Source: Ginsengibacter hankyongi (GTDB lineage Bacteria; Bacteroidota; Bacteroidia; Chitinophagales; Chitinophagaceae). From it: a DNA stretch of 64,000 nucleotides. The stretch is taken from positions 1,249,501-1,313,500 of the forward strand of contig NZ_VYQF01000001.1 in the NCBI RefSeq assembly GCF_008710285.1. Reading direction: 5' to 3'. Under the pieces are notes generated by a model, which saw only the letters and a program-made list of their open reading frames with translations, did not search any database and had not been told where the DNA came from. Below, piece by piece: positions 1,060 through 58,168 of this stretch. The position numbers were made by a program, and so were the translations under genes. Each line of letters opens with the position of its first letter. Position 1 is the first letter of the stretch.

Positions 1060-3438
1060 ATGCAAAAAAGAACGATAAAAAAAGTAGCGGTGTTAGGAAG
1101 TGGAGTAATGGGAAGTCGCATTGCCTGCCACTTTGCGGGAATTGGCTTACAGGTTTTGTTGCTTGATATTGCCAGCCCCGCAAAAGAAGGAGAGCTGAAA
1201 CCTAACCGAAATAAAATTGTAAACGATGCATTGGCCACAGCAATAAAATCTAATCCATCTCCTGTTTTTACAAAAGATGTTATTAAAAATATTACTACGG
1301 GAAATTTTGAAGATAACATGAAAGACATCACCTCCTGCGATTGGACGATTGAAGTTGTTGTCGAAAGATTGGATATTAAAAAGTCAATTTTTGATGAAGT
1401 TGAAAAATTTCGCAAACCTGGAACGTTAATTACTTCCAATACTTCAGGTATTCCTATTCATCTTATGACGGAGGGCAGAAGTGATGATTTTAAAAAACAT
1501 TTTTGCGGCACACATTTTTTTAATCCCCCGAGATATTTACAGCTTCTTGAAATCATACCAACACCAGATACTGATACAGAGATTATTGATTTCTTAATGC
1601 ATTATGGTGATCTGTATCTTGGGAAAACAACCGTTCTTTGCAAAGACACTCCTGCTTTCATTGCCAATCGTATTGGGGTTTTCAGTATTATGTCAATATT
1701 CCATATTATGGAAAAGCTTGACTTAACTATCGATGATATCGATGCCCTAACAGGTCCCGTAATTGGCCGGCCGAAATCTGCAACGTGTCGAACTGCCGAT
1801 GTTGTAGGAATAGACACCCTTGTAAAAGTAGCGATAGGTGTAAAGGATAATTGCCCTGGTGATGAAGCGAAAGACACATTTGTTATTCCTTTATGGTTGC
1901 AAAAAATGGTTGATAATAAATGGTTAGGTGATAAAACAGGCCAGGGATTTTTTAAGAAAACTAAAGGCGATGAAGGTCAAAAAGAAATTCTCACGCTCGA
2001 CCTTAAAAAATTCGAATATACCTCCCGACAAAAACCAAAGTTTGCAACACTTAATGCAGCAAAACCAATTGACGATCTGAAACAAAGATTGAAAGTTTTA
2101 GTTGCGGGAAAGGATAAAGCTGGCGAATTTTACCGCTCATTTCATTACAGTCTTTTCTCTTACATCTCACATCGCATTCCTGAAATAAGTGATGAAATTT
2201 ATCGCGTTGATGATGCTATGAAAGCGGGCTTTGGCTGGGAAATAGGAGCTTTTGAATCATGGGATGTGTTGGGAGTAAAAGAAACCACTGCTGCAATGAA
2301 ATCCGCGGGCTACGATGTCGCAAATTGGGTTAACGATTTTCTTACTGAAGGCAATATTTCATTCTACAAAATTGAAAATGGAAAGCGTTTATACTACGAC
2401 GTTAGTACCAAAAAATATTTACAACTTTCCGGCGGCGATTCCTTTATTATTTTAAGTGACCTTAAAGAAAAAACAGTTTGGAAAAACACTGCCTGCAATC
2501 TATATGACTTGGGTGATGATGTTGTTGGCCTGCAGTGGAATACTAAAATGGGGAGCATAGGCAGTGAAGTTTTGGAAGCTATGAATAAATCTATCTCTAT
2601 AGCCGAGGAAAAATATAAAGGATTAGTTATTGCAAATGAAGGCCCTCAATTTAGTGCCGGAGCCAATGTAGGAATGATTTTTATGCTTGCGACGGAACAG
2701 GAATATGATGAACTTGACCTGGCAATCCGCATGTTTCAAAATACCATGATGCGGGTACGGTATTCGTCCATACCCGTGGTAGTTGCGCCGCATGGTTTGA
2801 CCCTCGGTGGCGCTTGCGAAATGTGTTTACACAGCGATAAAGTGCAGGCTGCTGCAGAAAGTTATATTGGTCTTGTTGAGTTGGGAGTTGGTCTTATACC
2901 TGGGGGCGGAGGAACTAAAGAATTTACTTTACGTTCCGCGGATGAAATGCATGAAAATGAACCGGAAACTATTACACTTCAAAGCAGGTTCCTCACCATT
3001 GGTACCGCTAAAGTTTCTACATCAGCGTTTGAAGCATATAATTTAGGAATCTTACGTAAAGGCATAGACGAAATAAGTATGAACCAACAGAGAAGAATCG
3101 CTGATGCAAAACAAAGTGTTATAGAAATATTTGATAATGGTTATACAATGCCCTTACAAAGAACTGATATAAAAGTTTTGGGCCGCTCTGTTTTGGGAAT
3201 GCTATATGCAGGAATAAATGGAATGCACCGCGGAAATTATATTACCGACTACGATGTAATAATTGCAAAAAAGCTGGCTTATGTTATGTGTGGTGGCGAT
3301 CTCAGCGAACCTACATTAGTAAGTGAACAATATTTACTTAACCTCGAAAGAGAAGCATTCTTAAGCCTTTGCGGCGAAAAGAAAACACTGGAAAGATTAC
3401 AAAGTGTTTTGAAAACGGGAAAACCCATAAGAAACTAA
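1060..3438 (+). CDS. 3-hydroxyacyl-CoA dehydrogenase / enoyl-CoA hydratase fusion (FadN-type)
   Basis: A 792-residue bifunctional beta-oxidation enzyme. The N-terminal half is 3-hydroxyacyl-CoA dehydrogenase: GSGVMG at residues 13-18, the HFFNP segment carrying the catalytic His, and KDTPAFIANRIG. The C-terminal third is a crotonase-fold hydratase with oxyanion-hole segments FSAGAN and LGGACEM and a LGVGLIPGGGG loop. The domain order (dehydrogenase first) and length resemble Bacillus FadN and are the reverse of E. coli FadB. In FadN operons a thiolase and an acyl-CoA dehydrogenase usually follow, but here a convergent gene follows after a terminator, so the partners must lie elsewhere. Confidence 0.9.
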   Translation: MQKRTIKKVAVLGSGVMGSRIACHFAGIGLQVLLLDIASPAKEGELKPNRNKIVNDALATAIKSNPSPVFTKDVIKNITTGNFEDNMKDITSCDWTIEVVVERLDIKKSIFDEVEKFRKPGTLITSNTSGIPIHLMTEGRSDDFKKHFCGTHFFNPPRYLQLLEIIPTPDTDTEIIDFLMHYGDLYLGKTTVLCKDTPAFIANRIGVFSIMSIFHIMEKLDLTIDDIDALTGPVIGRPKSATCRTADVVGIDTLVKVAIGVKDNCPGDEAKDTFVIPLWLQKMVDNKWLGDKTGQGFFKKTKGDEGQKEILTLDLKKFEYTSRQKPKFATLNAAKPIDDLKQRLKVLVAGKDKAGEFYRSFHYSLFSYISHRIPEISDEIYRVDDAMKAGFGWEIGAFESWDVLGVKETTAAMKSAGYDVANWVNDFLTEGNISFYKIENGKRLYYDVSTKKYLQLSGGDSFIILSDLKEKTVWKNTACNLYDLGDDVVGLQWNTKMGSIGSEVLEAMNKSISIAEEKYKGLVIANEGPQFSAGANVGMIFMLATEQEYDELDLAIRMFQNTMMRVRYSSIPVVVAPHGLTLGGACEMCLHSDKVQAAAESYIGLVELGVGLIPGGGGTKEFTLRSADEMHENEPETITLQSRFLTIGTAKVSTSAFEAYNLGILRKGIDEISMNQQRRIADAKQSVIEIFDNGYTMPLQRTDIKVLGRSVLGMLYAGINGMHRGNYITDYDVIIAKKLAYVMCGGDLSEPTLVSEQYLLNLEREAFLSLCGEKKTLERLQSVLKTGKPIRN

Positions 3439-3447
3439 ATAAAAAAA

Positions 3448-3464
3448 CCGGGCTATTAACCCGG
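3448..3464. terminator. Bidirectional hairpin terminator
   Basis: A 5-bp GC stem (CCGGG / CCCGG) with a 7-nt loop is flanked by seven A residues on the left and a T-run on the right. It can therefore end transcription from both the hydroxyacyl-CoA dehydrogenase gene (+) and the convergent T9SS cargo gene (-). Confidence 0.75.
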
Positions 3465-3488
3465 CTTTTTTATTTGACCTACTTTCTT

Positions 3489-38175: not shown

Positions 38176-40593
38176 ATGAGAAATATTGCCTTCTTACTTT
38201 TTTATTTTATTTTTTTCGGCTTAATTGCTTCTGCTCAAAAAACACAAACAGAATCTAAAATTACATTGCCAAATGGATGGAGCCTGTCTCCTGCGGGACA
38301 GGGCTTTTTATTAGGTGACCTCCCTCTTAATATAGCCGTAAGTAATTCAAAAAAATTAATGGCCGTTACCAACAACGGACAAAGCACACAAAGCATTCAA
38401 CTGATTGATGTTCCTACAGGAAAAATATTGGATAATATCGTTGTAAAAGAATGCTGGCTAGGACTAAAGTTTAGTGCCGATGAAAAATTTCTGTATGCTT
38501 CCGGTGGAAACGATAACTGGATTTTGAAATACGCCATCAGAAATAATAAGCTTCTTTTGAAAGATTCTTTAAAACTTGGTAATAAATGGCCCAATAAAAT
38601 TTCACCCGCAGGAATTGATATAGATGACAAACAAAATCTTTTGTATGTGGTTACAAAAGACAATAACTCATTATACATTATTGATCTCCGGACAAAAAAA
38701 ATAAAAGGCCAATATAAACTTGATGGAGAAGCCTACACCTGCTTGTTATCCCCTGACAAAAAAGAATTGTATATCACTTGCTGGGGTTGCGATAAATTAT
38801 ATGTATTTAATACGGCGAGTAAAACATTTACGGGATCTATAGCAACGGGTAGTCACCCGAATGATATTTGCTTAACTAAAAATGGGAAGTTTATTTTCGT
38901 TGCCAATGCTAACGATAATTCTGTTTCAATAATTGATTTGACTACAAAAAAAGTAATAGAGACTTTAACTACTTCTTTGTACCCAAATGCACCACAAGGT
39001 TCCACAACTAACGGTCTTGCTTTAAGCCCTGATGAAAAAACTTTATACATCGCCAATGCAGATAATAATTGTCTTGCCGTTTTTGATGTAAGTGAACCAG
39101 GTGAGAGTAAGTCCGAAGGATTTATTCCTACAGGCTGGTACCCGACTTGTGTAAAAGCAATTGGTAACAAAATTTACGTAACTAACGGTAAGGGCTTTTC
39201 GTCTTTCGCTAACCCTGAAGGTCCCAATCCTTATAAGAAGAAGGAAACCATTACATTTAGAAAAGGTGATACTTCCAAAATAAAAACCGTTCAATATATT
39301 GGTGGCCTGTTTATTGGAACTATGAGCATCATTGATGTTCCCACCTCAAAACAGTTAGGAGAATATTCCAGGCAGGTATACGATAATACGCCTTACACAA
39401 AAGAAAAAGAAACAGTTTCCGTGGGCGAAAAAGGAAATCCAATTCCCGAAAAAGTTGGCGAACCATCGCCTATTAAATATGTATTTTACATCATAAAAGA
39501 AAACCGTACCTACGACCAGGTATTGGGAGACATAAAAGAAGGTAATGGCGATTCAAGCCTTGTTTTATTTGGTGAAAAAGTTACACCCAATCAACATAAG
39601 CTGGTAAATGATTTCGTATTACTTGATAATTATTATATAGATGCGGAAGTGAGTGCAGATGGGCATAACTGGAGTCTCGGTGGTTATGCAAATGATTACC
39701 TGGAAAAAAACTGGGTAACAAGCTATGGTGGACGGGGTGGTACGTATGATGCTGAAGGAACAAGGGAAATCGCTAACAATAAAAACGGATTTATCTGGAA
39801 TTATTGTAAGCGTGCAGGCATAAGCTACCGCACTTACGGAGAATTTGCGGATGACTATAAACCGAACATTCCTATTTTAAAAGATCATTTTTGCCCGTAT
39901 TTTACAAGTTGGGATTTGAACGTGAGAGATACCACCAGGGTTGGCCAATGGAAAAAAGATTTCGACTCACTGGTAAGCGTAAACGCTTTACCTCGGCTCA
40001 ACACATTACGGCTTATTTGCGATCACACAGAAGGTTTAAGAAAAGGAAGGCCAACGCCTTTAGCGCATGTTGCGGACAACGATCTTGCAGTTGGCATGTT
40101 TATCGATTACCTTAGCAAAAGTCCTGTTTGGAAAGAAAGCCTTGTAATAATTACTGAAGATGATGCACAGGACGGACCCGATCACGTGGATGCTCACAGG
40201 AGCACTGCTTATGTTGTGAGCCCTTATGTGAAGAGGCACTATGTTGACCATACTCCTTACACTACAACAAGCTTATTAAGAACTATTGAATTAGTACTAG
40301 GATTACCACCAATGAGTCAGTATGATGCAGCGGCAACTCCTTTGTGGCTTAGCTTTACAGCAACTCCTGATCTCAGCACTTTTGACCATGTACCACCACA
40401 AACTGACATCAACCAAATATACATGGCAACCAATAAGCTTACTGAAAAAACTGCTGCGTTTAATTTTTCAAAAGAAGATGAAGTTAATGAGGTTGACTTT
40501 AATGAAGTGTTATGGAAAGGAATTAAAGGAATGAATAGCCCCGTACCTTCTCCAAAGAGAGCTGCCTTTATAAACACGAATGATAATGATTGA
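38176..40593 (+). CDS. YncE-like beta-propeller / phosphoesterase fusion, secreted
   Basis: An 805-residue exported protein with a signal peptide ending near IASAQ. Residues about 40-370 are a YVTN/YncE-type propeller, with recurring blade motifs (SIQLIDVPTGKI, SLYIIDLRTKKI, SVSIIDLTTKKV, SMSIIDVPTSKQ). From about 430 a phosphoesterase domain of the alkaline-phosphatase superfamily begins, with YIIKENRTYDQVLGD, then DGHNWS, ITEDDAQDGPDHVDAHR and YVSPYVK-like blocks that should bind metals. Substrate unknown; phosphate ester or phospholipid hydrolysis is the family expectation. Probably periplasmic or surface located. Confidence 0.85.
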   Translation: MRNIAFLLFYFIFFGLIASAQKTQTESKITLPNGWSLSPAGQGFLLGDLPLNIAVSNSKKLMAVTNNGQSTQSIQLIDVPTGKILDNIVVKECWLGLKFSADEKFLYASGGNDNWILKYAIRNNKLLLKDSLKLGNKWPNKISPAGIDIDDKQNLLYVVTKDNNSLYIIDLRTKKIKGQYKLDGEAYTCLLSPDKKELYITCWGCDKLYVFNTASKTFTGSIATGSHPNDICLTKNGKFIFVANANDNSVSIIDLTTKKVIETLTTSLYPNAPQGSTTNGLALSPDEKTLYIANADNNCLAVFDVSEPGESKSEGFIPTGWYPTCVKAIGNKIYVTNGKGFSSFANPEGPNPYKKKETITFRKGDTSKIKTVQYIGGLFIGTMSIIDVPTSKQLGEYSRQVYDNTPYTKEKETVSVGEKGNPIPEKVGEPSPIKYVFYIIKENRTYDQVLGDIKEGNGDSSLVLFGEKVTPNQHKLVNDFVLLDNYYIDAEVSADGHNWSLGGYANDYLEKNWVTSYGGRGGTYDAEGTREIANNKNGFIWNYCKRAGISYRTYGEFADDYKPNIPILKDHFCPYFTSWDLNVRDTTRVGQWKKDFDSLVSVNALPRLNTLRLICDHTEGLRKGRPTPLAHVADNDLAVGMFIDYLSKSPVWKESLVIITEDDAQDGPDHVDAHRSTAYVVSPYVKRHYVDHTPYTTTSLLRTIELVLGLPPMSQYDAAATPLWLSFTATPDLSTFDHVPPQTDINQIYMATNKLTEKTAAFNFSKEDEVNEVDFNEVLWKGIKGMNSPVPSPKRAAFINTNDND

Positions 40594-56628: not shown

Positions 56629-57267
56629 TTAGCTAACCGTTACCTCACCGGTAAAAATACTGGTGGCAACACTCTTTCCGTCTTCAGCAATGAAACCGAT
56701 GTAGGTCTCAACTGCAAGGCCCGAAAAAGGCAACAGGTTCAGTTCACCCGCCAGGTCGCTTCTTAGGCCGCCCACCGTTGTGTAAATAGCCTGCTTTTGC
56801 AACGGGCAATAAGCAACCAAAATGGCCTGGTCAGTAGCCTTTGCTGTACCTACGCCGGAGTTATCTGTCCAGCTAAAAGTAACCAGGCTGCCTGCTCCCG
56901 CCGTTACTGCCGGCCCCAACACGTTAGGCAGGTCTCCCCTGCTTACCAGTGCCAGCGAATAATCGATCGTAAACGAAGGATACATACCGGTTATGGCATT
57001 TTTAATGTTGTAGCCAAAGGCATTATTAATGCCCGTCATTTTAATTGCAAAATCGCGAAAACTGATGTTAAGCAAACCCGCCATAGGCTGAAGAAAGCGC
57101 ATAATGAGCCCGAATTTCAATTGCTGCTCCAACTGCTTTTGGCTGGCGTTAAAATTGCGGCGGCTGGCCTGGCTGCGCATATAATTTATGCCTTTCCAGG
57201 TGCCTCCAATTACTGTTCCTACTTTGCCGGAGAAACCTCCGAGGATACCTTTGTTGATGGTTCCCAT
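56629..57267 (-). CDS. DUF6266 family protein
   Basis: A 212-residue protein opening MGTINKGILGGFSGKVGTV and continuing GTWKGINYMRS, the recognisable start of DUF6266, an uncharacterised Bacteroidota family often found in many copies. The remainder alternates beta segments (LVTFSWTDNSG, AILVAYCP, ETYIGFIAEDGK) and may be a beta-sandwich. There is no signal peptide, so its location is unclear. Two tandem hairpins lie downstream. The function is unknown; phage-like or secreted particle roles are speculation. Confidence 0.82.
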   Translation of the reverse strand: MGTINKGILGGFSGKVGTVIGGTWKGINYMRSQASRRNFNASQKQLEQQLKFGLIMRFLQPMAGLLNISFRDFAIKMTGINNAFGYNIKNAITGMYPSFTIDYSLALVSRGDLPNVLGPAVTAGAGSLVTFSWTDNSGVGTAKATDQAILVAYCPLQKQAIYTTVGGLRSDLAGELNLLPFSGLAVETYIGFIAEDGKSVATSIFTGEVTVS

Positions 57268-57510
57268 AAAATGTAGATTTAGAAATTAAAAAAATAAAAT
57301 ACCATGCTTCATACGTTGCTTGCAAATTGTGTATACGCTTGTGTGAAGCGAATAGATAACGGGCAACTGTTAGCGAATATTTGCAGGTGGTAAATTTTAC
57401 CGTACTATTCCAGGTACCGTTGCAGAATTCACCTTTGTGTGATTCTTTTCCACTCTTTACAATTTTATACCACTCTATTCCACAACACCATAAGAAAAGA
57501 TTAAACCAAA

Positions 57511-57644
57511 GAACACTAATCACTCAAAGAATGCATGTCCCTTGGTGCCCTCTGTGCCTTAGTGGTAAAAAAAAGAAGTGGACCTCAAAGACGCTCAGTA
57601 CATAAAGAATTAATTCCTCTCCGCGTTCCTTTGCACCTTTGTGG
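57511..57644. repeat. 9-nt-periodic degenerate CTTTGTG-like element with alternating orientation
   Basis: Four blocks are visible. Block B (57540-57566) reads CCTTGGTGC, CCTCTGTGC, CTTAGTGGT; block D (57619-57644) reads CTCCGCGTT, CCTTTGCAC, CTTTGTGGC. Blocks A (57511-57532) and C (57577-57600) show the same pattern on the opposite strand, for example CTTTGAGTG, ATTAGTGTT. The element therefore alternates in orientation with a period of 9. Similar ACCACxxAGGxCAC-like intergenic stretches occur in many bacteria, but I could not confirm a family. Confidence 0.6.
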
Positions 57645-57745
57645 CAATAAAACCTTAATGGGAAATGAAAGAAACAAACACAACGCTCCATCAAAAAAAT
57701 CACGCATATGCTTTGACGTTACAATTAAAATGCATAGTTTACCGC

Positions 57746-57797
57746 TTTGATTGAAAACCACCTCATTTAACAAAACCATTTTATCATTTCAATCAAA
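57746..57797. repeat. Perfect 11-bp inverted repeat upstream of HTH gene
   Basis: TTTGATTGAAA at 57746-57756 and TTTCAATCAAA at 57787-57797 are exact reverse complements separated by 30 nt. The right arm ends 5 nt before the ATG of the HTH gene. This fits an operator bound by a dimer, an RNA stem covering the start, or arms of a small mobile element. Confidence 0.65.
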
Positions 57798-57802
57798 AAC
57801 AA

Positions 57803-58168
57803 ATGAAAAACAACCAACAACGGGTTGCAGGCAATTCCATTTCTTCTTTGTACAAATCCGAAGAGACACCCAAAGAATTTGCGTACCACATGCCACCCGG
57901 AACAAAATTCAGTGATATCTTAATGGATGTACAGGAGGTATGCCAGGAATTGCACATGAGCAAGCGCAAGGTGTACAACCTGCGCAGGGCAAGTATCCTA
58001 TCCTACACCAGTTTAAGCAACGACGGCAAAGCCTATTTTTTCAGGCAGGAGATAGCTGGCATGCTGGAAGCGAATACCGTCATCGGGAAAAATAGTTTGA
58101 TGAAGAAGTTCGGTATCAGCGGCTGGCTCACCAGCATCACTTCTTTTTTATCTTTTTTTGATTTATAG
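57803..58168 (+). CDS. Helix-turn-helix DNA-binding protein
   Basis: A 121-residue protein. From about residue 40 the segment LMDVQEVCQELHMSKRKVYNLRRASIL resembles the HTH_17/MerR-excisionase type common in Bacteroidota, followed by the wing-like YTSLSNDGKAYFFRQEIAGML. The last 20 residues are hydrophobic (SGWLTSITSFLSFFDL). Such proteins are often excisionases or regulators next to mobile or variable genes. No integrase is present here. Start ATG 57803 lies directly after the inverted repeat, so autoregulation is plausible. Confidence 0.7.
   Translation: MKNNQQRVAGNSISSLYKSEETPKEFAYHMPPGTKFSDILMDVQEVCQELHMSKRKVYNLRRASILSYTSLSNDGKAYFFRQEIAGMLEANTVIGKNSLMKKFGISGWLTSITSFLSFFDL

Follow-up and report, generated by a model that had tools for sequence, protein, structure and literature searches.

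Inverted repeats bracketing genes for the predicted nuclease GxxExxY in bacteria and a probable gene-less copy in Ginsengibacter hankyongi

Background

REPs are inherited vertically and are rare on plasmids and phages. Together with REPINs they are short inverted intergenic repeats that go with a nuclease gene, that of the RAYT (TnpA-REP, an HUH Y1 enzyme), as set out in passages of three papers (PMC3733652, PMC8266576, PMC3116915). A second kind of repeat with a likeness to those described here is the MITE of a DDE insertion sequence, which shares with them terminal inverted repeats and gene-less derivatives. Among nucleases, homing endonucleases of the PD-(D/E)XK fold are found in introns, in inteins or at conserved sites and are not known to have multi-word arms, and TnsA acts with TnsB and others; both share with the enzyme considered here, as predicted for it, a nuclease fold that is able to make breaks by which copying is driven.

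The system that we report is like REP with RAYT in its dispersed chromosomal inverted repeats, its gene for a single-domain nuclease with these repeats on both sides, its gene-less copies and its many sequence families, as well as in its vertical inheritance and in being rare on plasmids and phages. The enclosed gene, however, belongs to the GxxExxY family (PF13366/TIGR04256), annotated just as a predicted nuclease, and its fold, modelled as PD-(D/E)XK-like, would be unrelated to the HUH fold of RAYT. Furthermore, recognition seems to rest on spaced 7-nt words and not on a hairpin, and GxxExxY elements carry no GTAG or CGTC tag. When membership of the REPs was considered, the repeats were dispersed and mainly intergenic as REPs are, but tag, hairpin and, in the 12 Y1 loci read, flanking of a RAYT gene were lacking; by analogy, the GxxExxY system would work like REP with RAYT without being a member of REP. 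As for MITEs of DDE elements, no fixed target-site duplication was seen in 65 elements, possibly too old to keep one, and arms that directly border the GxxExxY ORF leave no space for a DDE gene; unlike TnsA, the nuclease has no partner gene inside the elements read. No paper describing these repeats or their link to GxxExxY was found among the matches listed in open-licence PubMed Central, where motif strings match exact spellings alone, in line with the original prediction that such stretches have no assigned function. The passages found in three papers (PMC8934634, PMC9756366, PMC12085832) do not link GxxExxY to repeats or mobility.

Results

The 64-kb stretch of DNA that was analysed (the window) holds two degenerate inverted pairs at 57504-57645 (Table 1). 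The original prediction described them as non-coding and not explained by any gene, which their intergenic position bears out, and as four blocks on alternating strands with a 9-nt period, a description that held in part. The blocks and their strand order are present, but the blocks are unequal when scored over the 20 fixed positions of CTTNGTGNNCTTNGTGNCTTNGTGGT. Block B has the best arm score anywhere in the window; apart from blocks B and C, a single position scores four mismatches or fewer (38368-38393, with three mismatches, within a long ORF). Taken alone, block A is not significant, with 13 window positions on both strands scoring 7, and we call it an arm solely because it precedes block B at the distance and on the strand expected of one. 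The words in blocks B and C are spaced 9 then 8 nt, whereas block D, by direct reading of the sequence, lies outside this register. A lag-9 signal is seen in block B (z 2.7; lag 8, z 2.2) but not in block D (z -0.4), and over the four blocks as a whole autocorrelation is weak (lag 8, z 2.4; lag 9, z 1.5). The regular 9-nt period, whose disappearance in autocorrelation had been named as counter-evidence, thus fades in part, the true spacing being 9-8(-10).

Table 1. Positions of the window element, its blocks and the neighbouring genes
Feature	Position	Strand	Description
Block A, outer arm of short element 1	57504..57529	-	CTTTGAG-ATTAGTG-CTTTGGTT, strongly degenerate, 7/20 mismatches
Block B, inverted partner arm of short element 1	57541..57566	+	CTTGGTG-CC-CTCTGTG-C-CTTAGTGGT, 1/20 mismatches
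Block C, outer arm of short element 2	57582..57607	-	CTTTATG-TA-CTGAGCG-T-CTTTGAGGT, 4/20 mismatches
Block D, inverted partner arm of short element 2	57619..57645	+	CTCCGCG-TTC-CTTTGCA-C-CTTTGTGGC, words spaced 10 then 8
Intergenic region holding the window element	57268..57802	.	between DUF6266 gene and HTH_17 gene
DUF6266 gene	56629-57267	-	PF19781, E 1.5e-59
HTH_17 gene	57803-58168	+	PF12728, E 8.4e-07

Compared with the CTTNGTG arm family described below, the window copy has the inverted arms and the spacing of 9 then 8, well kept in block B, less so in block C and decayed in blocks A and D. It folds no better than shuffled sequences (RNA z 0.70, DNA z 0.08), and no Rfam family matched the window at gathering score. 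The orthologous site was searched for in 19 other genomes of the genus, a few of which have the DUF6266 gene, and the five DUF6266 loci read (L372, L373, L374, L379 and L380, the last in the own genome, G000) carry no arm at ≤5 mismatches. The genomes G001 and G006 match the window arm, but at other places than the DUF6266 loci. At L380 (G000:C23, near 493343) TTCACCATTGAC-like units were found in tandem beside another DUF6266 gene.

A profile search of the own 5.5-Mb genome, the check proposed with the original prediction, returned 10 places including the window copy for the first unit profile (≤3 mismatches) and none for the reversed control, so the window copy is not a single copy without relatives. 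Arms read from these places have the form CTTNGTG-NN-CTTNGTG-N-CTTNGTGGT, with words 9 then 8 nt apart, and the pattern corrected in this way (≤2 mismatches) gave 17 arms in the same genome, the window copy among them, with the reversed control again at 0. The consensus is CTTNGTGNNCTTNGTGNCTTNGTGGT followed by [G/T]AA, and a fourth word at -10 is partly conserved. Arms consist of three (often four) CTTNGTG words 8, 9 (and 10) nt apart, the 7-nt words of this flavour being separated by linkers of 1, 2 and 3 nt, and inverted arms end in ACCAC.../...GTGGT. The corrected pattern (≤2 mismatches) matches 74 of the 294 family genomes, with a maximum of 239 arms in one genome (G212), while the reversed pattern gave five matches over all 294 (hand tally) and none in G212. 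An exact 9-9 spacing nearly missed the family, with one match in one of 39 genomes (≤1 mismatch). An exact-match scan with one genome per species found at least 118 stretches, and the 80 titles listed fall, by our own grouping, into about 20 phylum-level groups; Cyanobacteria, Bacteroidota, Planctomycetota, Chloroflexota, Acidobacteriota, Gemmatimonadota, Pseudomonadota, Nitrospinota, Omnitrophota and WOR-3 are among the matches listed. The genome, family and exact-match searches thus confirm that similar intergenic stretches are scattered through many bacterial genomes, as had been supposed.

Neighbouring arms within 400 nt are arranged minus-then-plus in 59 cases, plus-then-minus in 13 and in the same direction in 7. 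In paired arms the GTGGT ends point outwards and most arms are less than 60 nt apart; 53 minus-then-plus pairs lie within 110 nt and form terminal inverted repeats. Between the arms of these 53 pairs, linker bases agree at 0.28, 0.34 and 0.40 (shuffled partners 0.34, 0.32 and 0.44), whereas the variable word base agrees at 0.43, 0.62 and 0.66 (shuffled partners 0.28, 0.27 and 0.27), which we read as each genome having its own word flavour. Since the word base agrees between arms and the linkers do not, the signal looks like words on double-stranded DNA and not like a stem. The imperfect hairpins of A with B and of C with D that had been suggested find no support in these uncorrelated linkers or in the folding of the window copy. 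Nearly all words in G212 are CTTAGTG, and its short elements run ACCACTAAG-1-CACTAAG-2-CACTAAG-3-CACTAAG, followed by a centre and then the mirror image. Arms avoid genes: although ORFs of ≥150 aa take up 78.5% of the loci, just 20 of 125 exact arms lie for the most part within one. The contexts of the intergenic arms (tandem 53, divergent 17, convergent 11) are about as gap length predicts, and no preferred gene orientation was found around them.

That GxxExxY genes lie among such repeats was presumed from the outset and was tested in this analysis. Among loci to which nothing but the arm pattern had led, L061, L085 (partial ORF), L107, L145 and L172 have a GxxExxY ORF enclosed by a minus and a plus arm, and starting from PF13366 matches, inverted word arrays of many flavours were seen by eye to bracket the gene. 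Where measured, a complete element is about 0.45-0.5 kb long, with one GxxExxY gene inside an inverted arm pair. The inverted similarity of the flanks exceeds the 99th percentile of 375 control ORFs in 73 of 107 distinct GxxExxY genes and the 95th percentile in 91; among 30 genes of the family that were selected on profile score and without reference to arms, the corresponding numbers are 19 and 25. The 107 genes were kept from 134 HMM matches by dropping duplicates, partial matches and short flanks, with related genes left uncollapsed. They originate (number above the 99th percentile in brackets) from the arm pattern, 6 (6), from profile score alone, 30 (19), from 12 genomes chosen partly for their arms, 46 (28), from arm-bearing genomes, 24 (19), and from a later addition, 1 (1). 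The remaining 34 genes fall below the 99th percentile, some of them with a lost arm (e.g. L185 as compared with L181). On plasmid records three of eight genes pass the flank test and five stay below (150-nt flanks); at a Sphingomonas plasmid locus below the cut-off, visible arms overlap an annotated ORF. Left and right flanks are alike beyond cross-paired loci (p 4e-31, 75 loci).

At the level of genomes, PF13366/TIGR04256 is present in all 28 family genomes with at least five arms and in 159 of the 266 others (p 1.4e-6, uncorrected for relatedness; the 28-genome tally was made by hand from tables). Of 47 arm-bearing genomes of the other loci, 44 have PF13366 as well; this set was taken from 80 listed loci, chosen to leave out most Bacteroidota and without arm-free control genomes of the same phyla. 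Sequence comparison thus shows the anatomy of the elements and, in several phyla, the linkage of the gene to its bracketing arms. Moreover, arm similarity rises with protein identity, with rho 0.48 over the 3531 of 3570 pairs that are not at orthologous sites (0/500 permutations), calculated for the 85 of 107 genes with a flank score of at least 36. This co-variation was also obtained within single genomes (rho 0.50, 58 pairs, 0/2000 permutations) and between family and other loci (rho 0.44, 1566 pairs). Therefore arms and gene evolve as one unit, and we are nearly certain that they form one.

The protein of L107 matched TIGR04256 (E 2.1e-42) and PF13366 (E 5.2e-42) and no other family. A putative catalytic motif, D-x(8-11)-E-x-K, is conserved in 105 of 107 GxxExxY proteins. 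One of five structure models was confident (pLDDT 84.1, pTM 0.79; the other four pLDDT ≤52), and its best structural matches in VIA-align, where middling Z scores are common, are restriction-endonuclease-like (Cas4-like SSO0001, Z 8.5; BamHI, Z 8.4). Foldseek returned no match at E 0.001 or better, and no PDB sequence is significantly related. A PD-(D/E)XK-like fold is predicted on the basis of Pfam membership, the conserved motif and Z scores of up to 8.5 in VIA-align. The one protein compared with PADLOC had no defence match. The dN/dS ratio is 0.025-0.107 in 10 of 12 computable pairs (the others 0.26 and 0.48; two more saturated), which shows purifying selection in most pairs tested; under vertical descent such selection fits host function as well and leaves room for a host role, alone or additional. 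Of 103 GxxExxY genes, 85 are co-directional with both neighbours. One protein query (E 1e-5) found GxxExxY in at least eight of 72,556 plasmid records and in none of 50,697 phage records, and two peptide patterns found it in at least one viral contig.

The own genome has five GxxExxY genes; the arms of three are of the GTCTGAAC-ATGAT type and those of a fourth are GTCTGAATCACGGATT. None of the five has CTTNGTG arms, and the window copy is therefore without a cognate enzyme in its own genome. The GTCTGAAC-ATGAT-type flavour occurs at 17 places (control 0), four of which adjoin a GxxExxY gene, while 13 have none within the 3-kb locus. At these 13 gene-less places the best inverted partner is 98-141 nt away in seven and 346-518 nt away in six; several lie in clusters of such pairs, so that the places are not independent. 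Gene-bearing and gene-less elements with matching arms thus coexist in one genome. In G001, of the same genus, a GxxExxY gene lies inside an array of CTTNGTG elements. In this array (L299, G001:C22:1-7000), which contains the gene, CTTNGTG elements without a gene recur in tandem about every 122 nt. In G212, the genome with the most arms, five gene loci out of seven matches were analysed, and the CTTNGTG flavour brackets none of them; at one (L246) just a short element stands beside the GxxExxY gene. Genomes contain several GxxExxY copies of different flavours. The own genome and G212 count against a simple rule of one gene for one flavour, or else the copies are relics.

Several comparisons bear on movement, and we consider it likely that the elements are mobile. 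Five genomes of a genus differ at an orthologous site, where two carry full elements, one a short element that is partly decayed and of another flavour, one none and one an unrelated palindrome. The latter (L295, G321:C9:22850-23700) is strong, has CGTC/GACG motifs and may be a CGTC-type REP; in other species GxxExxY elements occupy its position, which suggests hot spots of insertion common to both. A further two genomes are distinguished by a gene-bearing element in the arg operon that is present in one of them, and the remnant kept by the other indicates loss. In Sphingomonas parapaucimobilis an element with CTTCGCG arms (by eye) separates fabD from fabG, which are adjacent in S. paeninsulae, Rhizobium and Sinorhizobium, and this comparison argues for gain of the element. 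The IMG/VR phage contig L305 (IMGVR_UViG_3300032770_000220), the single viral contig in which the pattern search found a GxxExxY protein, has a full element and a short one among its head genes, and both elements are absent in a relative. Presence and absence at orthologous sites are thus apparent from these alignments.

Copying is suggested by G212, where the first 30 of 203 arm places in contig order yielded 18 short elements. In this sample 17 of 78 compared pairs share centres at ≥65% (shuffled 0/78), and pairs with like centres have a linker identity of 0.52 (42% over all pairs) and a word identity of 0.95, which is partly ascertained since the elements were found by their words. Seven dispersed copies with homologous centres lie over 250 kb of one contig with flanks that are not alike. 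Target-site duplications were sought in the 65 elements, a set without recent insertions and exact empty sites; at equal offsets at most 2/65 share four or more nucleotides, and no length or offset stands out. No clean pre-insertion site was found among comparators that are 66-92% identical and differ in their intergenic bases. Some element sites are occupied in several genera. One intergenic site (L190, L203, L223, L237, L238 and L252) holds different GxxExxY flavours in several genera, and the elements that G043 and G212 carry at a common site (L302, L303) likewise differ, as though one whole element had taken the place of another.

Discussion

We favour, with a probability of about 0.7 for the explanation as a whole, a nuclease-plus-inverted-repeat element with gene-less derivatives, the window stretch being a decayed, gene-less copy of this two-part chromosomal DNA system in the form of two tandem inverted pairs. 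In the mechanism that we infer, GxxExxY would bind words of its own flavour on both arms, bring the two arms together and cut at or beside the GTGGT ends, and host repair would then copy the element into another intergenic site, so that binding and cutting of the arms would cause their spread. Gene-less copies (arm-spacer-arm) would be mobilised in trans and would then decay. GxxExxY is, on the whole, probably the mover of the elements, and its link to the repeats lies beyond what a reader of the window sequence alone could see.

An unlikely alternative is that GxxExxY is a chromosomal DNA-binding nuclease kept by the host for repair, chromosome organisation or regulation, with the arms as its operators and the gene-less pairs as binding sites in use. 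The low dN/dS ratios in 10 of 12 pairs, the co-directional genes (85/103), the rarity of the family on plasmids and in phages, the occupation of some sites in several genera and the conservation of words while linkers drift (partly ascertained) would suit such a role. Nevertheless, it does not account well for presence and absence at orthologous sites, including an element inside the fabD-fabG pair and one in a phage head-gene cluster, for several copies of different flavours per genome, for the patchy distribution (74/294 family genomes), for dispersed homologous copies or for intergenic arms without orientation preference. Less probable still is that the arms are spread by an unidentified recombinase, or by recombination or gene conversion between repeats, and that GxxExxY is cargo using or tolerating them. 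Genomes in which a flavour is present in many copies while no gene examined belongs to it, as well as the lack of target-site duplications in 65 elements, speak for a passenger, but the arms co-vary with the protein within and across genomes, no room is left for another gene where both arms directly adjoin the ORF, and 12 Y1 transposase loci are without CTTNGTG arms.

The same Y1 loci make it very improbable that the repeats are REPs moved by RAYT (Y1 tyrosine) transposases, in spite of a REP-like lifestyle and of Y1_Tnp in 23 of 24 family genomes tested. Y1_Tnp occurs in arm-rich and arm-poor genomes alike; 0/12 Y1_Tnp loci among the matches listed carry a CTTNGTG arm (best 7-10 of 20 mismatches), and six of the 12 have strong inverted flanks of their own (scores 47-85), e.g. 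L362 (G000:C23:380844). Within 10 nt of an element end, GTAG/CTAC was found on either strand in 1/65 elements and CGTC/GACG in 3/65. An RNA hairpin such as a transcription terminator or an mRNA stabiliser, to which the inverted arrangement and intergenic position would be suited, is equally implausible in view of the linkers that do not co-vary between arms, the fold z of the window copy, the sole copy folded, and gene contexts that follow gap length. Finally, the weak autocorrelation and the two poor blocks of four might suggest a chance low-complexity pattern. For the repeat family this reading is refuted by the 17 arms of the own genome and the 239 of G212, each against 0 for the reversed pattern, with five control matches in 294 genomes; blocks A and D alone remain weak.

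Beyond the nuclease-plus-repeat reading itself, there is perhaps an even chance that mobile DNA in bacteria includes a separate superfamily which GxxExxY proteins mobilise and which has a PD-(D/E)XK nuclease as its sole enzyme. Such an enzyme would read spaced 7-nt words (linkers 1, 2 and 3 nt) of a flavour that evolves with the protein, and gene-less copies would explain several widespread families of intergenic repeats at once (CTTNGTG, CTCTGTG, CTTTGCG, ATCCGTG, GTCTGAAC..GATT and others). Intergenic repeats of about 20 phylum-level groups among the matches listed, for which no described function was found, gain a candidate partner gene, and a nuclease family without known role in the papers found can now be tested together with its repeats. 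If true, this would be a second, independently evolved REP/RAYT-like system in bacteria. Its naturally matched proteins and DNA flavours would lend themselves to the study of DNA reading by a small nuclease, and it would account for spacing variation between neighbouring genes through a source that is now annotated as nothing.

Two further observations were made in the own genome. At L018 (G000:C1:1338890-1339300) there is a tandem array of inverted CTTNGTG pairs, three in number and followed by the left arm of a fourth, much better preserved than the window copy. In the window itself, a short near-perfect hairpin at 3437-3475, with A and T runs on both sides, resembles a bidirectional terminator.
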